A DNA stretch of 64,000 nucleotides from Anaerocaecibacter muris. Its GTDB lineage: Bacteria > Bacillota > Clostridia > Christensenellales > Pumilibacteraceae. Positions 12,428 through 26,836 of this stretch are shown here, in pieces. Where the stretch lies: the NCBI RefSeq assembly GCF_943192945.1, contig NZ_CALPCE010000001.1, positions 1 to 64,000 on the forward strand. Reading direction: 5' to 3'. Position 1 is the first letter of the stretch. Every line of letters begins with the position of its first letter. The position numbers were made by a program, and so were the translations under genes. The notes beneath the pieces are model-generated. The model was not told where the DNA came from and did not search any database. It was given only the letters and a program-made list of their open reading frames with translations.

Positions 12428-12563
12428 CGCCTTGATTTCTCGACAAGCTCGAAATGATGGGTGATTTGGCTTTACACGCCTATTATTTCGATCGAAGTGC
12501 GCGTGCCTTTTTCCCATCATTTCGACCGTATCGCGCCTCGCGCGCGTAGCGGAGAAATCAAGC
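12428..12563. repeat. Inverted copy pair of the GATTTCTC/GAAATGATGGG repeat
   Basis: The left part at 12428-12461 reads CCTTGATTTCTC, then GAAATGATGGG. The right part at about 12513-12563 is the same module inverted (CCCATCATTTCGACC, then GGAGAAATCAAG). The 50 bp between them are unique. A transcript could fold into a long stem. It occupies most of the 264-nt gap between ddl and the germination operon. Confidence 0.75.
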
Positions 12564-12659
12564 CGACAGCCGCATAAAGAAAAGTCAATACACCGCCGCA
12601 ATTTCGTGTTTATACACCGTTCCCGTATAATAGCGCGTTGCGTTCCGCAAAATATCGGT

Positions 12660-14072
12660 ATGGAAAACGTCGAGCGAATTTTGGGCGAGTTTGCCACGCC
12701 GAATAACGTAGTTACGCACGAATTTAAGTGCGGAAAGCTGTTGGGCGCGGTTATAGTTAATCCCGACCTATCCGACGCGAGCGTGCCTCGCGCGGTTATT
12801 TACGCGTTGGAAAACTGCGCACAAAAGCTGGACTCGCTCGACGATTTCGACAGGTACGCTCTGCTCGAATACGACATAAAAATTTCCTCGAACGTGCAGG
12901 ACTGTATAAACAAACTTCTAAACGGCGATATGCTGTTGTGCGTGGAGGGCGACGCGCGGTATGCGGTAATCAACGCGCGTTCATACACGACGCGCGCCAT
13001 TATGGAGCCTCCGACCGAAACGGTCATGCGCGGTCCGCGCGAGGGGTTTATCGAAGATTTAAAAACCAATCTCTCGCTGTTGGAGCGTCGGCTCAAAACG
13101 CCCGACCTCGCAATAGACCGCATGGAAATAGGCAGGCGCACAAAGACCAACGTCGCGGTGTGCTATCTTAATTCTGTCGCGGCGCCGCAGGTCGTGCAAA
13201 AAATAAAAAGTCGACTCAAAAAGATAGACATCGACGGCATTGTTGACAGTCACTATCTTGTGCCGTACCTCGAAGAAAAGCCGTACTCGGTTTTTACGCA
13301 GACGGGTATCAGCGAAAAGCCGGACGTGGTCGCCGCCAAACTGCTCGAAGGGCGCGTTGCGCTCGTAGTGGACGGGTCGCCCATGGTGTTGACCGTGCCG
13401 TTTGTGCTGATAGAGGAATTTCAATCGGGCGAGGACTACTATCAGCGCGCGCCTTACAGCACGTTCGTGCGCATACTGCGGTACTTGGGTCTGATTTTGG
13501 CGACGCTGTTGCCCGCGCTGTACGTAGCAATGCAAAACTTCCACTACACGCTTATCCCCGTTCGGTTTATGATAACATTGATGACGGCAATAAAGGGGTT
13601 GCCGTTGTCGCCGCTTGCCGAAACGCTGTTTGTTCTGTTGCTGTTTGAAATCATACGCGAAGCGAGCGTGCGCATGCCGCGCGCCGTGGGCATGGCGATG
13701 AGCATTGTGGGCGCGCTCGTGCTGGGCGAAACGGCTGTGAACGCGGGAATAATCAGCTCGCCCGCGGTAATGATAACGGCGTTGAGTTCCATTGCGCTGT
13801 TCACCGTGCCCAATCTTATAGGACCTATGAGCATACTGCGCTTGGCGTTTACGCTAATCGGCGGACTGTGCGGGCTGTTCGGGCTTATACTCGCCGTGCT
13901 GTTCGCACTGCATTACGTCTGTTCGCTCAACGCTTACGATTCGCCGTATCTCGCGCCGTTCGCGCCGCTCGTGTATTCCGACTTTAAGGACGCGATAGAA
14001 CGCGGTCCGCTCACGACAATGAAAAAGCGACCCAAAAGCATACCCAATCAAAACCCGACCCGACAAATATAA
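12660..14072 (+). CDS. Spore germination protein, GerAA/GerKA family
   Basis: A-subunit of a nutrient germinant receptor in the spore inner membrane. It has an N-terminal soluble region (to about residue 270) with FIEDLKTNLSLLERR and PQVVQKIKSRLKKIDIDGIVDS, a family hallmark. A membrane region follows: FVRILRYLGLILATLLPALYVA, FVLLLFEIIREASVRMP, and IGPMSILRLAFTLIGG. The product is 470 residues from ATG 12660. An upstream in-frame GTG at 12606 would add 18 residues, but neither start has a clear Shine-Dalgarno. ATG is preferred because MENVERILGEF resembles a family N-terminus. It is followed by the B and C subunit genes in the canonical order. Confidence 0.9.
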   Translation: MENVERILGEFATPNNVVTHEFKCGKLLGAVIVNPDLSDASVPRAVIYALENCAQKLDSLDDFDRYALLEYDIKISSNVQDCINKLLNGDMLLCVEGDARYAVINARSYTTRAIMEPPTETVMRGPREGFIEDLKTNLSLLERRLKTPDLAIDRMEIGRRTKTNVAVCYLNSVAAPQVVQKIKSRLKKIDIDGIVDSHYLVPYLEEKPYSVFTQTGISEKPDVVAAKLLEGRVALVVDGSPMVLTVPFVLIEEFQSGEDYYQRAPYSTFVRILRYLGLILATLLPALYVAMQNFHYTLIPVRFMITLMTAIKGLPLSPLAETLFVLLLFEIIREASVRMPRAVGMAMSIVGALVLGETAVNAGIISSPAVMITALSSIALFTVPNLIGPMSILRLAFTLIGGLCGLFGLILAVLFALHYVCSLNAYDSPYLAPFAPLVYSDFKDAIERGPLTTMKKRPKSIPNQNPTRQI

Positions 14073-19674: not shown

Positions 19675-20883
19675 TTATTTTTTATTCTTTTCGAGCATTT
19701 TGGCGCGCACTTTAAGCGGCAAGCCGAAAAGATTGATAAAGCCCGCCGAGTCCTTTTGGTCATAGACCTCGTCCGCGCCGAACGTGGCAATATCCTCGTC
19801 GTACAGCGAGTAGGGCGAAGTCATGCCCGCGGGCGTAATCTTGCCCTTAAACAGTTTGAGTTTTACATTGCCCGTGACATACTCCTGCGTGCTGTCCACG
19901 AATGCGGACAACGCTTCGCGGAGCGGGGTGTACCACTTGCCGTCGTAAACAAGGTCGGCGAATTTGAGCGCGACGTGTTCTTTAAAATGCGCGGTGTCGC
20001 GGTCGAGCGTAATTTCTTCGAGGTTTTTGTGCGCGGCGTAAAGTATGGAGCCTGCGGGGTTTTCGTAAACGCCGCGCGACTTCATGCCGACAAGCCTGTT
20101 TTCTACCATGTCGTCCACGCCCACGCCGTGGCGCGCGCCTATTTCGTTAAGCGTTTCTATGAGCGCGACGGGCGCGAGCTTTTTGCCGTTTACGGCGACA
20201 GGCACGCCCTTGACCCAATCGATAGAAACGTATTCGGGCGCGTCGGGCGTATCCTTAACGGGCTTGCTGATAAGCAGCATTTCGTCTTTGGGCGCGTTGG
20301 CGGGGTCTTCGAGGTCGCTGCCCTCGTGCGAGAGGTGCCAAAGATTGCGGTCCATGGAATAGTTATGCGCCTTTGTAACGGGCACGTCCAGCCCGTGCGC
20401 AACGGCGTAATCGATTTCCTCGTCGCGCGACTTGATGTCCCAAATCCGCCACGGCGCAATTATTTTCATATCGGGCGCGAGCGCCTTGATAGACAGCTCG
20501 AACCGCACTTGGTCGTTGCCTTTGCCCGTGCAACCGTGACAAATAGCGTCCGCCTTTTCCTTCTTGGCAATTTCGACCAAGCGTTTGGCGATAACGGGAC
20601 GCGCGAATGACGTGCCCAAAAGATACTTGCCCTCGTACACCGCGCCCGCCTTAATGGTGGGGAAAATGCAATCGGTGACAAACTCCTCGGTTAAATCCTC
20701 GATGTAAAGTTTTTCCGCGCCGCTCTTTGCCGCTTTTTCTTTGAGCGGCGCAAGCTCCTCGCCTTGACCGACGTCGGCGGCGACGGCGATAACTTCGCAG
20801 TCGTAATTCTCTTTGAGCCACGGGATAATTATGGTCGTGTCCAGACCGCCCGAATAAGCCAAAACAACTTTCATTTTTGCCAT
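19675..20883 (-). CDS. argG: Argininosuccinate synthase
   Basis: Condenses citrulline and aspartate with ATP. It begins [17 protein letters not shown], whose SGGLDT is the PP-loop of N-type ATP pyrophosphatases. Further hallmarks are [30 protein letters not shown], and [11 protein letters not shown]. The length of 402 residues is standard. The minus-strand ribosome binding site AAGGAG is well placed before ATG 20883. Together with argH it indicates arginine biosynthesis from citrulline. No clear ArgR box was recognised upstream. Confidence 0.98.
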
Positions 20884-21134: not shown

Positions 21135-21165
21135 TTGACAAGGGGGGGGGGGGGTATGGTACAAT
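21135..21165 (+). promoter_or_regulatory. Promoter with 13-G homopolymer spacer upstream of surface lipoproteins
   Basis: TTGACA at 21135-21140 and TACAAT at 21160-21165 flank a 19-bp spacer consisting of A, thirteen G (21142-21154) and TATGG. The 17-bp optimum would be reached with eleven G. Slippage in such a tract changes spacer length and so promoter strength, as known for Neisseria porA and opc. Transcription would start about 90 nt before the lipoprotein ATG at 21262. Confidence 0.75.
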
Positions 21166-21210
21166 AACACAATTATAGATAACGTGTCTGTAATTTTTTA
21201 AACTGTTTTT

Positions 21211-21232
21211 GTTCGGGAAAAACCGCCCGAAC
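21211..21232 (+). other. Leader hairpin before the first surface lipoprotein
   Basis: GTTCGGG (21211-21217) pairs perfectly with CCCGAAC (21226-21232) around an 8-nt loop. No T-run follows, so it is a leader structure rather than a terminator. It lies 30 nt upstream of the start codon. Confidence 0.5.
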
Positions 21233-21261
21233 GCATTGCGTTACACGGTTTGCGAGGTATT

Positions 21262-24200
21262 ATGAAAAACAAGCGAACGCATGGAATTTACATAACAATT
21301 TCCGCGGCGGCGGCAATAGCCGTTGCGGGCGCGCTGTTGACTGCGTGCGGCGACGACAAGCCGCCCGCCCAAACTCCCGATAAATATTCGGTAGCGTACA
21401 GTCTTGACGGCGGCGTCGGCACGTTGCCGACCGAAACGGACAAAGCTGCGGGCGAAAAGTTTAGCCTTGCGGCGGCGACGGGCTTGACCAAAGAGGACTA
21501 CACGTTCGACGGCTGGCACGACGGAGCGGTAAAGTACGACGCGGGCGCGGAATACACAATGCCCGCGCACAGCGTGACTTTCACGGCGCAGTGGAAACCC
21601 GACGAGGGTAGCGACCCGTCCGACGTCGAGTTTAAAATTGTTTACGAATATAACCTCGGCGAAGTGCCGCACGGCGGAACGGTCAAACCGTCAACGGGCG
21701 CGTCGGGCAGTTCCGTAACGGTCAAGGACGGCAGGGCGTTCAACCCGCGCGGCTATAAGTTTGTCGGCTGGTCAACAAAGCCCGACGGCATTGTGTCGCT
21801 TACGGGTACAAAAGAGGACGGACAGTATCTCGCGGGCGAAACAATCGTAATGGGCGAAAGCGATATTACGCTGTACGCGCAGTGGGCTGTTGAATATACT
21901 GACGCGCGCGAAGCGTCGGCGGATAAAATTTGCGTATACAAACCGTTAATCGGCAAGGGCTTGGGCGCGGCTATATTGGTGCGCAGCGGCAAAGCGGACA
22001 AACTCGGCTTTGTCGAAAGCTCGGAAAGCACGCAATCGGGCTATGACGAGTTCGAGTTCTTTTTCGACGAAAGCGAGGGCGGCAACCTTGTAGGCAGACT
22101 GTACGCCGATAATACTTATGCCGCTATCGACGGCACCCAAGGCGTGTACTTGCAGTACGACTATGTTTATAAGGACAACGGACGGTACGTGCTTGCAACC
22201 GACGGTTACGGCTTTGCCACAATTTCGGAAATTGTCGGCAGTCAAACCGCAGTTCGGTTCAGCGGTTATTACGAATACGACAGGCAGTACGGCGATTATA
22301 CATACGTTTTTAAAAACGAGGAAACCAACGCGACGGGTCAAGGCTATTTCACGATAGAAAAGACCGAGGTAAGCGGCACGTCGTTCGACGGTCGGTTCCG
22401 CTTGCAGGGCGAGGAAAGCGGGTCGTACCTGCTGTACGACAACGGCGAGCTGTTAAACTACCGCTTGGATGCCAACGGTTACGGTTTTGCTAAAATCTAT
22501 GCCTACGACTCCGTTTCGCAAACTACCGAGCTTGTCGCCTCGGGCACATACTGCGGCACGGAAAATTACGACGGCTTTTTGGGCGAGTGGGAGTTTACCC
22601 CGACAACGGGCGACGGCTTTAAGTTTATACTCAACGTGTTGTATGTCGGTACCGACGTCGTGCCCGTGTATGTGGAATACAACCCCGACTATGCGCGCAC
22701 GTTCACCGCGGAAAGCGGCGATGGCACGCTTGTGCTCGACGGGTATATCGGCGCTACGTACACGACGGGCGGCGCGAAGTATGACGGCAATGTCACGGTC
22801 GGCGAAAACCTTATAACGTTTGTTCCGTATGAGGACGACGGCGAGGGCGGCGCGACCGCGGGCGCGGCTATGTACTTTAACGTCAACTGGGAAAACAACA
22901 CGTTTAAAGTCAATACGACGGGCTTCGTTATTGACAGCACGACGCTCATAGACTACAAGGGAACTTCCAAAATAATAGAAATTCCCGACGAAGTAACCGA
23001 AATCGCCGACGGCGCGTGCAACTACGTAAATACCGACGTGTCGCTCGTGTCGGTAACTATTCCCGCGAGCGTGACGGCAATAGGCAAGCTCGCGTTCCAA
23101 AACCAATATACATTGCGCCGCGCGGTGTTCCTGTCGCCGACGCCTATAAATATCGACTTTTCCAACGAAGCCAACCCGTTCCGCTGGGGCGCGGGCGACA
23201 TGACAATCGTTGTGCCGGAAGGCAGTCAGAACGCTTACAAAGCGGCGTGGACTAACTGCCCGTTCGCCATAAAAGGCAGTGTGGAAGTTACAAAGCTACC
23301 CGAGTTCGAAATTGTGGACGGCGTGCTTGTTCGCTACAATAAACAGCCCGACACGGCGGAACTTTTGGACATTGTTATTCCCGCAGAAGTGACGGAAATT
23401 TCCGCAAAAGCGTTCCGCGGCTTTGAATTTGTGCGAAGCGTAAATTTGACCAACGTCGAAAAAGTAGGCGACGGCGCGTTCGAGAGCTGCGTAAACCTCG
23501 AAACAGTCGTTATGAACAAAGTGAAAGTGTTGGCGGACGGCGCGTTCTCCAACTGCTACAAACTCGGTTCGACCGCGAACGGAGTTATAGAATTGCCCGC
23601 AATCGTCACGGTGGGCGCAAACGCGTTCCAAAGCTGTATCGCGTTAAAACTCGTCAAGTTCGGCGCGAGCCTTGCGGAAATAGGCGACATGGCGTTCCGT
23701 GAGTGCCATATTTTTGAAAACGAACCCGCGCTGTTTATAGAACTGGACGGCGTAACTCCGCCGAGCATGGGCGAAAAAGTTTCTACCGGCAATATTTCGT
23801 TCAGAATAAAAGTCAAAAATATCGACGTCGCAATTGCTTGTTTCGAGGCGGCGGGCTGGAATTCGTATTGCAGACACCTGTATATCGAATCGGGCGCGGA
23901 AAGAGGCAAGTACATGTGCGGCGCGGAGCTTTTGGACATCGACGGCAGAGCGACGTTCCAATCGACGTACTTGATGATGTACAAGATTGACGGCGCAAAA
24001 ATAACGTTCTACGAATACGACGCGTCAATAGGCGACTACTCGACGTATGAGGGCACGATAGAAAACGACGTTATTTCGGTCAACTTCTACAATGCGGATT
24101 ACGAGTTCCGCAAGGTCAACGGCGTTGTTACGTATACAACCGCGGACGGCAAATATACGCTCAAATGCGACCCGCTCGCGCTGTTGCCCGAAAGTTACGA

Positions 24201-24651
24201 AAACAATCAGGGCGAAGCGACGGTAGAGTTTAACGGCGTAAACGTCAAAATGACTGTAAACGGTTTCGGCACGAAAAAGATACTCGACTTTACGGACAGC
24301 GACGGAAAACGTTACGACATAACGATAACGTTCGACGGCAATACGCTTGTCGTCAAAAAATCGCCCGCGGAAATATTTATTCGGAATATAACCGCCGCCG
24401 ACGGAAGCGTTATCAACCTGCATTACAGAGGAACGCTTGTGTACGTGTTCGGCGAACTCAAAATAAACGTCGGCACGGAAACCGAGCCCAAATATATCGT
24501 TTGGAGCGATCTCGGCGCAATAGCCTTGTTCTCGGCGGACGACGAAAACGTGTTCACTTTCAGCGTGCGCTATCTCAATGTCAAGTACACCGTGACCGTA
24601 ACGCTCAACGCCGAGCGGACGACGTTCGAGTATACGTATACGGCGCAATAA
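21262..24651 (+). CDS. Large surface lipoprotein with Listeria-Bacteroides repeats and BspA-like LRRs
   Basis: A secreted lipoprotein of 1129 residues. The signal peptide ends in the lipobox LLTAC with Cys29. Residues of about 37-110 form a Listeria-Bacteroides (InlB B-type) repeat: LDGGVGTLPTETDK, then FDGWHDGAVKYDAGAEYTMP, then VTFTAQW. A second, divergent repeat (about 120-210) ends LYAQW. Mid-protein beta-rich segments carry repeated GYGFA motifs. BspA-type leucine-rich repeats (about 570-840) include IPASVTAIGKLAFQN, VGDGAFESCVNLETV, and IGDMAFREC. The start is ATG 21262, 3 nt after a weak GAGGT. It is probably cotranscribed with the next lipoprotein. Family members bind host or matrix proteins or polysaccharides; the ligand here is unknown. 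Confidence 0.88.
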   Translation: MKNKRTHGIYITISAAAAIAVAGALLTACGDDKPPAQTPDKYSVAYSLDGGVGTLPTETDKAAGEKFSLAAATGLTKEDYTFDGWHDGAVKYDAGAEYTMPAHSVTFTAQWKPDEGSDPSDVEFKIVYEYNLGEVPHGGTVKPSTGASGSSVTVKDGRAFNPRGYKFVGWSTKPDGIVSLTGTKEDGQYLAGETIVMGESDITLYAQWAVEYTDAREASADKICVYKPLIGKGLGAAILVRSGKADKLGFVESSESTQSGYDEFEFFFDESEGGNLVGRLYADNTYAAIDGTQGVYLQYDYVYKDNGRYVLATDGYGFATISEIVGSQTAVRFSGYYEYDRQYGDYTYVFKNEETNATGQGYFTIEKTEVSGTSFDGRFRLQGEESGSYLLYDNGELLNYRLDANGYGFAKIYAYDSVSQTTELVASGTYCGTENYDGFLGEWEFTPTTGDGFKFILNVLYVGTDVVPVYVEYNPDYARTFTAESGDGTLVLDGYIGATYTTGGAKYDGNVTVGENLITFVPYEDDGEGGATAGAAMYFNVNWENNTFKVNTTGFVIDSTTLIDYKGTSKIIEIPDEVTEIADGACNYVNTDVSLVSVTIPASVTAIGKLAFQNQYTLRRAVFLSPTPINIDFSNEANPFRWGAGDMTIVVPEGSQNAYKAAWTNCPFAIKGSVEVTKLPEFEIVDGVLVRYNKQPDTAELLDIVIPAEVTEISAKAFRGFEFVRSVNLTNVEKVGDGAFESCVNLETVVMNKVKVLADGAFSNCYKLGSTANGVIELPAIVTVGANAFQSCIALKLVKFGASLAEIGDMAFRECHIFENEPALFIELDGVTPPSMGEKVSTGNISFRIKVKNIDVAIACFEAAGWNSYCRHLYIESGAERGKYMCGAELLDIDGRATFQSTYLMMYKIDGAKITFYEYDASIGDYSTYEGTIENDVISVNFYNADYEFRKVNGVVTYTTADGKYTLKCDPLALLPESYENNQGEATVEFNGVNVKMTVNGFGTKKILDFTDSDGKRYDITITFDGNTLVVKKSPAEIFIRNITAADGSVINLHYRGTLVYVFGELKINVGTETEPKYIVWSDLGAIALFSADDENVFTFSVRYLNVKYTVTVTLNAERTTFEYTYTAQ

Positions 24652-24686
24652 TTTATCAAAAAACAACCCATTAAAAGGAGAATTTT

Positions 24687-26795
24687 ATGAACAAAAAACT
24701 GTTTAAGACGGTAGCGGCGATTACGTCCGTGCTCGCGCTCGGTTCGGCGGTTGTCGCTTGCAACGACGGCAATACTCCCGCAGGCCCCTCGGAGCCCGTA
24801 AAGTACGCCGTATCTTACGCGCTTAACGGCGGCGCAGGAACATTGCCGACCGAAACGGACAAAAAAGAGGGCGAAAAGTTTACGCTTGCGTCGGCGACGG
24901 GCTTGTCCAAAGAGAATTACACGTTTGACGGCTGGCACGACGGAACGACCAAGTATGCGGCGGGCGCGGAATACACAATGCCCGCGCATGCCGTAACCTT
25001 TACCGCGCAGTGGAAAGAGAACGAGGGTAAAGTCGAATTTAAAGTTACTTACAGCCTTAACGGCGGCGTGGGAACGTTGCCGACCGAAACCAACAAAAAA
25101 GAGGGCGAAAAGTTTACGCTTGCGTCGGCGACGGGCTTGTCCAAAGAGGACTACACGTTCGACGGCTGGCACGACGGAGCGGTTAAGTACGACGCGGGCG
25201 CGCAATACACAATGCCCGCGCACGACGTGACCTTGACCGCGGTGTGGAAAGCGGGCAAGCCGTCTATCGGCAATACCGTCGAGTTCGAGGGTGAGTGTGA
25301 AGTGCCGCCCGTACACCAAGGATTGACGCAGTTCGACGGCGGAGTGGTGGTCGGTCTTAAATTAGACGGTAGTACGGGAAAGGCGTATTACAAACTACAA
25401 GGCGCAGACTGGGTTGACGGTAAGTGGTTTAATAATAATACTAATTCCATGCATAAACCCGACGTTTACGGATCCGATGCGTATTATTACGAAATTAAGA
25501 TAGGCACTGTTGCGCATTATGTTCTTGTTAAGTCTGATCTGTCAAAGTTATACCTATGCGACCGCGACGACGAGCTTATGGCAAACGGCGAGTTTACAAT
25601 GGTCAACATAAACAATCCCGATAAGCCGGTCGATCCCGATAATCCCGAACAGCCCGTAACAAAATACACCGTTACTTATGTAAAGCCGTCGGGCGTAGAG
25701 GGGACTGTGCCCGCAGTCGTCGAGGTAGAGGAGAACGGCAAGCATACGCTTTTGGCAAGCCCGTTTACCAAAACAGGTTGGACGTTCTACAAGTGGCAAG
25801 TGAACGACGAAATAAACCTGCGCAAAGCTAATACGCAATATACTATAACTAAAAATACAACCGTCACGCCTGTGTTCCAAAAAACATATAGCGGCGAAAT
25901 AATGGAATACGATGAAGATAAGGATGATTATGTCCCTAAACAATACACGATTATATTAGCCGATAACGACAACGCTTATCTTAAAGGCGGCATGTCCGAT
26001 TCACTTTGGGGCGGATATACGCGCAACGGCAACAGAGTTGTTATAGACAGCAACAGCATGGGCGAGCTTTACCTCGATATTAACGACACTAACGGAACGT
26101 TCAAGGTGGTAACGCTCGACGTCTTGCAGGGTTTTGAATTTACGGCAAAAGACGGAACTACAAAACTTACTTTCGACGGAGAGGGACATGCAAAACTCGG
26201 CAATACGGACTGCACTTATACGTGGGACGAAAACGCGGGGCTGACCATTAACTTGTCTGTCGGCGGAAATACCGTTCCCGTTAAGTTGGAGGGAACATAT
26301 CCTAATTTTGTTATCAACGTCACGATAACCGTTGGCGGAACAGATTATATTTTCGGCGACGGCGGCAACATTGAACCCGAAGAACCGCTCGAAGGCAAAC
26401 TCTATGATTTTGCGGGCGAGGGATCTGCAAATGCCGTTAAGTACGGTTATGCAAGCGCAGCCGATGCGGAAGCCGCAAACCAAGTATTGACAGTGCAGAA
26501 TACTTTTGGCGCCGAACATAAATTTTATAACGCTTCTGTGTATTTCGTTCCGAAAAATAATAACAAGCTAATGATATACATTTACAGAACAGCGACATTA
26601 AATGTTGCCAATCCCCAAATAAACGGATCGCCAATCAACGACCCCGATATTGATAATCAGGTTGTTGTTATAACGAGTGGCAGTTACGGCGAGTCTTTTA
26701 AAATCAGTTTCAGAGTTGTTGACGGAAAGCGCACAATGACTATTAAATACGGTGATCAGTCCGTTACATGGGTAGAAATGACTGTGGCAGAGTAA
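24687..26795 (+). CDS. Surface lipoprotein with tandem Listeria-Bacteroides repeats
   Basis: A lipoprotein of 702 residues with the lipobox AVVAC and Cys25. Two near-identical Listeria-Bacteroides repeats follow (about residues 38-110 and 116-188), each with GTLPTET(D/N)KKEGEKFTL and FDGWHDG. A third, divergent copy near 330-400 starts YTVTYVKPSG. The rest is beta-rich and unrecognised, ending without a sortase signal. AAGGAG at 24675-24680 drives ATG 24687. The gene lies 35 nt behind its larger paralogue and shares with it highly similar DNA in the repeat units, which could recombine. The 3' half uses more A/T-ending codons than neighbouring genes. A bidirectional terminator follows. Confidence 0.85.
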   Translation: MNKKLFKTVAAITSVLALGSAVVACNDGNTPAGPSEPVKYAVSYALNGGAGTLPTETDKKEGEKFTLASATGLSKENYTFDGWHDGTTKYAAGAEYTMPAHAVTFTAQWKENEGKVEFKVTYSLNGGVGTLPTETNKKEGEKFTLASATGLSKEDYTFDGWHDGAVKYDAGAQYTMPAHDVTLTAVWKAGKPSIGNTVEFEGECEVPPVHQGLTQFDGGVVVGLKLDGSTGKAYYKLQGADWVDGKWFNNNTNSMHKPDVYGSDAYYYEIKIGTVAHYVLVKSDLSKLYLCDRDDELMANGEFTMVNINNPDKPVDPDNPEQPVTKYTVTYVKPSGVEGTVPAVVEVEENGKHTLLASPFTKTGWTFYKWQVNDEINLRKANTQYTITKNTTVTPVFQKTYSGEIMEYDEDKDDYVPKQYTIILADNDNAYLKGGMSDSLWGGYTRNGNRVVIDSNSMGELYLDINDTNGTFKVVTLDVLQGFEFTAKDGTTKLTFDGEGHAKLGNTDCTYTWDENAGLTINLSVGGNTVPVKLEGTYPNFVINVTITVGGTDYIFGDGGNIEPEEPLEGKLYDFAGEGSANAVKYGYASAADAEAANQVLTVQNTFGAEHKFYNASVYFVPKNNNKLMIYIYRTATLNVANPQINGSPINDPDIDNQVVVITSGSYGESFKISFRVVDGKRTMTIKYGDQSVTWVEMTVAE

Positions 26796-26807: not shown

Positions 26808-26836
26808 AAAAAGGTTGTCGGTTGACAACCTTTTTT
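26808..26836. terminator. Bidirectional terminator after the lipoprotein pair
   Basis: AAAAAGGTTGTC (26808-26819), a GGTT loop, then GACAACCTTTTTT (26824-26836). It ends the rightward lipoprotein transcript. Its A-run on the left gives a T-run for the leftward EIIC-like gene. Confidence 0.9.

Follow-up and report, generated by a model that had tools for sequence, protein, structure and literature searches.

A candidate phase-variable promoter with a poly-G spacer before two lipoprotein genes, and similar promoters across an uncultured Clostridia-like order

Results

A poly-G spacer lies upstream of two lipoprotein genes

We analyzed a 64,000-nucleotide stretch of DNA (the window) that carries the following features of interest:

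21135..21140, + strand: -35 element TTGACA, read from the sequence; TTGACA also lies 5' of the gene in 11/11 orthologues examined
21142..21154, + strand: G13 homopolymer making up most of the spacer, the putative slip-prone tract (sequence, run count)
21155..21159, + strand: TATGG, in which TG at 21157-21158 forms an extended -10 with TACAAT (sequence)
21160..21165, + strand: -10 element TACAAT, a 5/6 match (sequence, orthologue comparison)
21171..21200, + strand: hairpin rich in A+T in the early 5' leader, with a T run behind it (z of the 100-nt leader, -1.97)
21211..21232, + strand: second leader hairpin, GTTCGGG/CCCGAAC (leader folding)
21262..24651, + strand: lipoprotein gene 1 (1129 aa), with lipobox LLTAC, Listeria-Bacteroides repeat (Flg_new, InlB B-repeat) and BspA-type LRR_5
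24687..26795, + strand: lipoprotein gene 2 (702 aa), with lipobox AVVAC and three Flg_new repeats
26808..26835, no strand assigned: inverted repeat where two convergent genes meet; the list of terminator-like sites gives it for the - strand only

The promoter elements follow one another as TTGACA, A (21141), G13, TATGG, and TACAAT, with a spacer of 19 bp (21141-21159) and 96 bp between the -10 element and the ATG at 21262. An earlier note on this DNA had described TTGACA, a 19-bp spacer with 13 G, and TACAAT about 100 bp before the gene, without naming the extended -10, and this description is exact in the sequence, G13 being the consensus length from an assembly in which a 13-base homopolymer may be misjudged. 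No other G or C run in the window reaches 9; 5 overlapping G/C 9-mers were counted versus 0.07 expected, and 0/100 shuffles reached 5. No second promoter-like pair was found in the window between the G13 tract and lipoprotein gene 1. We rejected TATGGT (21155-21160, 14-bp spacer) as an alternative -10 because it matches at just 4/6 positions, and also since the TG-N-TATAAT of the orthologues aligns with TGGTACAAT.

The downstream pair (21262-26795) does consist of lipoproteins, as the note had proposed: a lipobox and Flg_new repeats are present in both proteins and LRR_5 in the first, and the products are presumably surface-exposed. Because only 35 bp separate the two genes, with no + strand terminator-like site listed between them, they are probably co-transcribed. 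The inverted repeat at 26808..26835 probably also ends their transcript. The divergent neighbor at 19675..20883 (- strand), which we take to be argininosuccinate synthase, is outside the switch. The first leader hairpin and its T run lie directly after the expected transcription start and are possibly an attenuator. A known regulatory RNA in the leader was rejected, the only Rfam match in the window being one tRNA, with none at the leader hairpins.

Orthologous promoters conserve the hexamers and their spacing

We identified orthologues of lipoprotein gene 1 in 12 other genomes of the genus (44-52% identity) and compared promoters in the 11 with upstream DNA (all but G011). TTGACA and a TATAAT-like hexamer (4 to 6 of 6 matches) occur 5' of the gene in 11/11, with spacers of 17 bp in seven genomes and 18 bp in four, although 5/11 allow a second, equally scoring hexamer pairing. 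Because both hexamers recur in this way, the TTGACA and TACAAT of the window are very probably the real promoter, as the note had assumed. The tract itself was found at 0/11 of the orthologous promoters examined, and the lineage of the window has very probably filled its spacer with G's, making it now one or two bases longer than in its relatives. Since 19 bp is off the conserved 17/18-bp spacing, loss of one or two G's would restore it; the two-base contraction to an optimal 17 bp that the note had put forward is thus sufficient, and a single base would also do. With the tract absent from all 11 orthologues, the switch in the window would be young, and conservation speaks for the class of promoter rather than for this locus.

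Spacer lengths are sharp in ordinary promoters and flat in poly-G/C promoters

We defined ordinary promoters as an exact TTGACA plus a TATAAT-like hexamer without a poly-G/C spacer and counted spacings of 10-25 bp, using DNA that had been examined for other reasons. In the DNA examined from the order, 46 ordinary spacers were of 17 bp, 14 of 18 bp, and 0 of 19 bp (n=89); in the window's own genome, the corresponding counts were 26, 7, and 0 (n=52). The spacers of poly-G/C promoters were instead distributed flatly over 15-21 bp, with 15/68 at 17-18 bp and 11/68 at 19 bp, and some are ambiguous (17, 19, or 21 bp for C6:138948 in the own genome) because a -10 was accepted anywhere from 0 to 10 bases past the tract. 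When an identical -10 rule was applied to both sets, 17-18 bp accounted for 19/92 poly-G/C versus 62/93 ordinary matches, a comparison that includes loci L178-L182, which were not drawn from the set of order genomes and were left out of the 78-site set described below. Such a flat spread would be expected of tract lengths that wander between strong and weak states. In the window, G13 gives 19 bp, a spacing at which ordinary promoters of the same genome have 0 matches; G11-G12 are accordingly predicted to be strong and G13 weak. The sharp ordinary spacing set against the flat poly-G distribution would let the state of each tract be read from sequence.

The same genome carries further spacer tracts

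The 1.97-Mb genome contains 29 G-tracts of at least 9 on both strands. The pattern TTGACA-N0-5-G9 matched at seven distinct sites and its reverse at 0. These sites, with 0-4 bases between TTGACA and the tract, are the window (G13), C2:43369 (G13), C2:94537 (G13), C2:196896 (G14), C2:206811 (G12), C6:138948 (G13), and C11:10998 (G14). An eighth promoter, at C2:13105, has a C12 spacer (TTGACA-TA-C12-GTGC-TATTAT). Downstream of the eight tracts lie three clear lipoprotein genes (the window's counted), a gene whose 1335-aa product has a hydrophobic segment at its N terminus, an operon encoding a signal peptidase (TIGR02228 above and SipW below cut-off) together with two small secreted-type proteins, genes for two predicted membrane or lipoprotein-like proteins, and one ABC-transporter operon. 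The case of C2:43369 (own L042:3222-3289) is less clear and its operon may have a second promoter, because an extra TTGACA, accompanied by weak -10 candidates, separates the tract from the first gene.

Tracts were also observed away from promoter spacers. A G15 at L052:13052-13066 (G000:C6:48851-48865) falls in the overlap between a ParB_N-type ORF (12545-13087) and a DNA methylase ORF (N6_N4_Mtase, 13012-13797), and the methylase is possibly slippage-controlled; this G15 is preceded within 2.7 kb by three further tracts, perhaps in phage genes. Two tracts (L048:6013-6022 and L055:5981-5989) fall within lipoprotein-like ORFs, one a G10 in the signal peptide (MTSIVATLGAMTGGGLVACG) and the other, on the other strand, a C9 just past a lipobox-like AVAC (AVACGEDAPP). 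Both may be frame-type switches alongside the promoter-type ones. Four tracts (L041:3038, L045:3007, L047:2977, and L050:3042) belong to a repeated element: all have the left flank 'ggtcgaaatgat', and the right flank 'gataataaata..agataaaagata' is common to three.

Spacer tracts recur in the genus and the order

We searched for TTGACA-N0-5-G9 in related genomes, with the reversed pattern as control and the window's genome counted each time. The pattern occurred in 12/20 genomes of the genus (reversed, 0 in all 20), in 51/297 of the order (reversed, one match in one genome), and in 12/299 of the phylum (reversed, none). Without the window's genome, it was present in 17/21 genomes of the same family and in 33/275 from other families of the order. 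Poly-C spacer promoters were found in 4/20 genus genomes; among them are a C17 before a lipoprotein gene and C9 and C10 tracts before genes for other small proteins (L245 in G008, L246 in G012, and L244 in G002).

For closer study we assembled 78 distinct sites, an incomplete set made up of the own-genome and genus finds and 60 loci chosen among the order matches listed. These 60 loci yielded 60 sites, 55 of which have a -10 matching at 5 or 6 positions; a TG stands before the selected -10 at 38/60, and the rule for picking the -10 favors TG slightly. Leaving aside one site with too little sequence for the test, a -10 (at least 5/6) begins no more than 10 bases past the tract at 68/77 sites, compared with 216/3,600 random positions. 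Seven of the 78 sites lack a readable downstream ORF. By simple home-made rules for lipoboxes and membrane helices, a lipobox was found in 30/71 downstream ORFs and a lipobox or N-terminal membrane helix in 49/71, versus 2/35 and 6/35 for ordinary own-genome promoters, a control drawn from the own-genome DNA around G-tracts and from the window. The lipobox enrichment has a Fisher p of about 8e-5, although the rows are not independent and, because the sites are related, p-values are only guides.

Near-identical lipoprotein paralogues share the design within single genomes: five in G100 (G9 or G10), four in G125 (all G9), and four in G177 (G10 or G12). Poly-G promoters also precede response-regulator-like genes (L183, L184, and L185 in G012, L205 in G163, and L208 in G150), so that a switch could control a regulon; L183, L205, and L208 were scanned, and in all three a receiver domain is combined with a LytTR domain.

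When genome contigs from outside the order were scanned for the exact pattern, 85 stretches were returned. They come from gut MAGs of Clostridia and Bacilli, from Helicobacter, and from other sources, and 19 of them belong to one Candidatus Ancillula MAG (JAIRWY01). This MAG has 20 sites in 19 loci (L098, L100, L104, L105, L107, L114, L122, L123, L125, L127-L129, L143, L158-L160, L166, L167, and L172) under a pattern that needed at least G11, with nearly constant flanks. The sites are mostly TTGACA-AGC/AGCA-G11..15-TGC-TATAAT and form a within-genome spacer series of 17-21 bp. With tracts of G8 or more, at least 28 distinct sites were present among the matches listed, and none in reverse.

A G-tract of varying length persists at an ABC-transporter promoter in 9 of 14 readable species

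The ABC-transporter ATPase gene 3' of C6:138948 has orthologues in 17/20 genus genomes, and upstream DNA was readable for 14 of the 17. The other three are G002, in which the gene is cut at a contig end, and G009 and G011, whose contigs start 141 and 86 bp before the gene; elsewhere in these two genomes, contigs end in TTGACA-poly-G and may adjoin the ABC contigs. A G-tract is present in the promoter region of 9/14 readable species, with lengths from 9 to 15: G13 in G000, G11 in G003, G15 in G004, G12 in G008, G10 in G010, G10 in G013, G11 in G015, G10 in G018, and G9 in G019. The tract of G010 has no TTGACA in front, and G003 and G019 have an additional promoter-like pair upstream. Among the five species without a tract, G005, G006, and G007 have ordinary spacers of 18, 17, and 18 bp, and in G001 and G014 the gene stands behind another gene, with no promoter match.

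Retention of a tract in several species together with a shifting length is typical of contingency tracts under selection. The length variation observed here is between species; the closest pair compared, G012 and G016, both carry G11 at another promoter that they share. The earlier note had proposed counting G-tract length in related genomes. The tract was found at none of the 11 orthologous lipoprotein promoters examined, and at the ABC-transporter promoter the length ranges from 9 to 15 between species.

Discussion

A slipped-strand promoter is the favored reading

In line with the phase variation that the note had inferred, we consider it highly likely that the promoter in the window would prove to be a slipped-strand phase-variation promoter of the porA/opc/fetA type, given a homopolymer that sits between a -35 and a -10 whose hexamers recur in 11/11 orthologues examined. 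Replication slippage would add or remove G's in 21142-21154 and shift the -35 to -10 distance in single-base steps. RNA polymerase carrying the housekeeping sigma factor would work best at 17-18 bp, here G11-G12, and the present G13 (19 bp) would be a weak state. It would not be fully silent, because some transcription that does not depend on the -35 can start from the extended -10 (TGGTACAAT). The outcome would be heritable, reversible, and graded expression of two InlB-repeat/LRR lipoproteins (21262-26795), switched independently of the genome's other poly-G/C promoters, so that a clone would become a mix of surface types. From the DNA alone we infer the slippage rate, the variation within populations, the effect on expression, the surface exposure of the products, and the selection.

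MutS domain I was detected in 25/26 genomes, including the window's, the one miss being a 51%-complete genome. On this MutS result, we rejected the idea that the tracts stem from lost mismatch repair, and slippage is not boosted by MutS absence. Long G-tracts allow slippage even with mismatch repair, and slippage here would occur despite it.

One alternative, which we regard as unlikely, is that the tract is a tolerated mutational expansion, in a spacer with little demand on its sequence, that slips without being a functional switch, the extended -10 making expression nearly independent of spacing. The extended -10 could indeed make expression less spacing-dependent, and the TG at 38/60 poly-G promoters is in keeping with such tolerance, as is the absence of the window's tract from the 11 orthologues examined. 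Tolerance fits poorly, however, with tracts that recur in the genus and the order while the reversed control stays near zero, that have a -10 directly past them at 68/77 sites, and that favor lipoprotein and membrane genes. The tract at the ABC-transporter promoter also persists in 9/14 readable species, and ordinary promoters have 0 matches at 19 bp.

A second alternative is that the tract works through a strand-specific DNA or RNA structure (G-quadruplex or R-loop) or through protein binding rather than through hexamer spacing. The G lies on the non-template strand at 74 sites compared with 4 C sites, a ratio that overstates the strand bias because C sites were sought in the genus only. Poly-C spacers at the same position in 4/20 genus genomes argue against any strand-specific structure, and a -10 at promoter distance at 68/77 sites points to spacing, which leaves this explanation very improbable.

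Least probable of all is a sequencing or assembly artefact, a false poly-G from two-color Illumina chemistry: several related contigs do stop within about 65 bp downstream of the tract, but the one in the window is embedded in a 400-kb contig and flanked by a -35 and a -10, TTGACA accompanies the pattern on one side with no reversed match in the genus, and tracts recur at orthologous positions in separate genomes.

Contigs ending 0 to about 65 bp 3' of a G-tract are L063, L064, L068, L076, and L081; G079:C53:1, G056:C4:18, and G144:C77:6 are also listed at contig ends, on the downstream side in those noticed. We did not use these breaks as a sign of mixed tract lengths. Sequencing drop-off explains them equally, since two of the ends (L076 and L081) look like adapter read-through, presumably garbled adapter.

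Returning to the slipped-strand reading, we lean toward extending it to an order-wide, standing surface dial built from TTGACA, poly-G, and an often extended -10, with up to about eight independent tracts per genome. If this is true, the dial would act on lipoproteins, a signal-peptidase operon, LytTR-type regulators, and an ABC transporter, and clones would explore many surface states. It would also amount to a promoter-based multi-locus phasome, partly conserved (the ABC-transporter tract), in bacteria not known as pathogens.

Comparison with known systems

In the open-licence literature we found no description of spacer-tract phase variation in this group and no papers on phase variation in Ancillula, Christensenellales, or Candidatus Borkfalkia; the accessible part of PMC10745880 has nothing on spacers. 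As far as this literature search shows, the mechanism is known and the setting is new: a multi-locus promoter-based phasome with several spacer tracts per genome in an uncultured Clostridia-like order. A review asks, in its section 8, why multi-locus phase-variable genomes seem restricted to pathogens (PMC11868660). The seven companion promoters and the pattern in 17/21 family genomes suggest that uncultured Clostridia-like lineages, for which no pathogenic life is known, harbor genomes of this kind. How tract lengths at these promoters behave within hosts over time is a question open to metagenomic reads.

Switching of porA, opc, and fetA in Neisseria has been proven experimentally. According to PMC2791445, the -10 and -35 of these genes are separated by unstable homopolymeric stretches, and promoter repeats modulate the level of expression. 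The promoters described here resemble those of Neisseria meningitidis porA, opc, and fetA in having a homopolymer in the spacer, surface-protein genes downstream, and modulation at the promoter level. They differ in that the Neisseria cases are single genes of a Gram-negative pathogen, whereas here about 8 promoters per genome serve lipoprotein paralogue families and are known from sequence alone.

Bifidobacterium breve is Gram-positive. In this gut commensal, replication slippage in a sortase-pilus G-tract controls a surface structure, and the tract is intragenic rather than in a promoter spacer as here (PMC9187656). This pilus tract, as described there, is the nearest gut case that we found.

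In the multi-locus simple-repeat phasomes of Campylobacter, Helicobacter, and Neisseria, reading-frame tracts dominate. Phasomes of this kind (PMC6321876, PMC2823697, and PMC5953494) are similar to the present case in their many repeat tracts per genome and their surface functions. Unlike in those phasomes, spacer tracts are prominent here, alongside a few intragenic ones.
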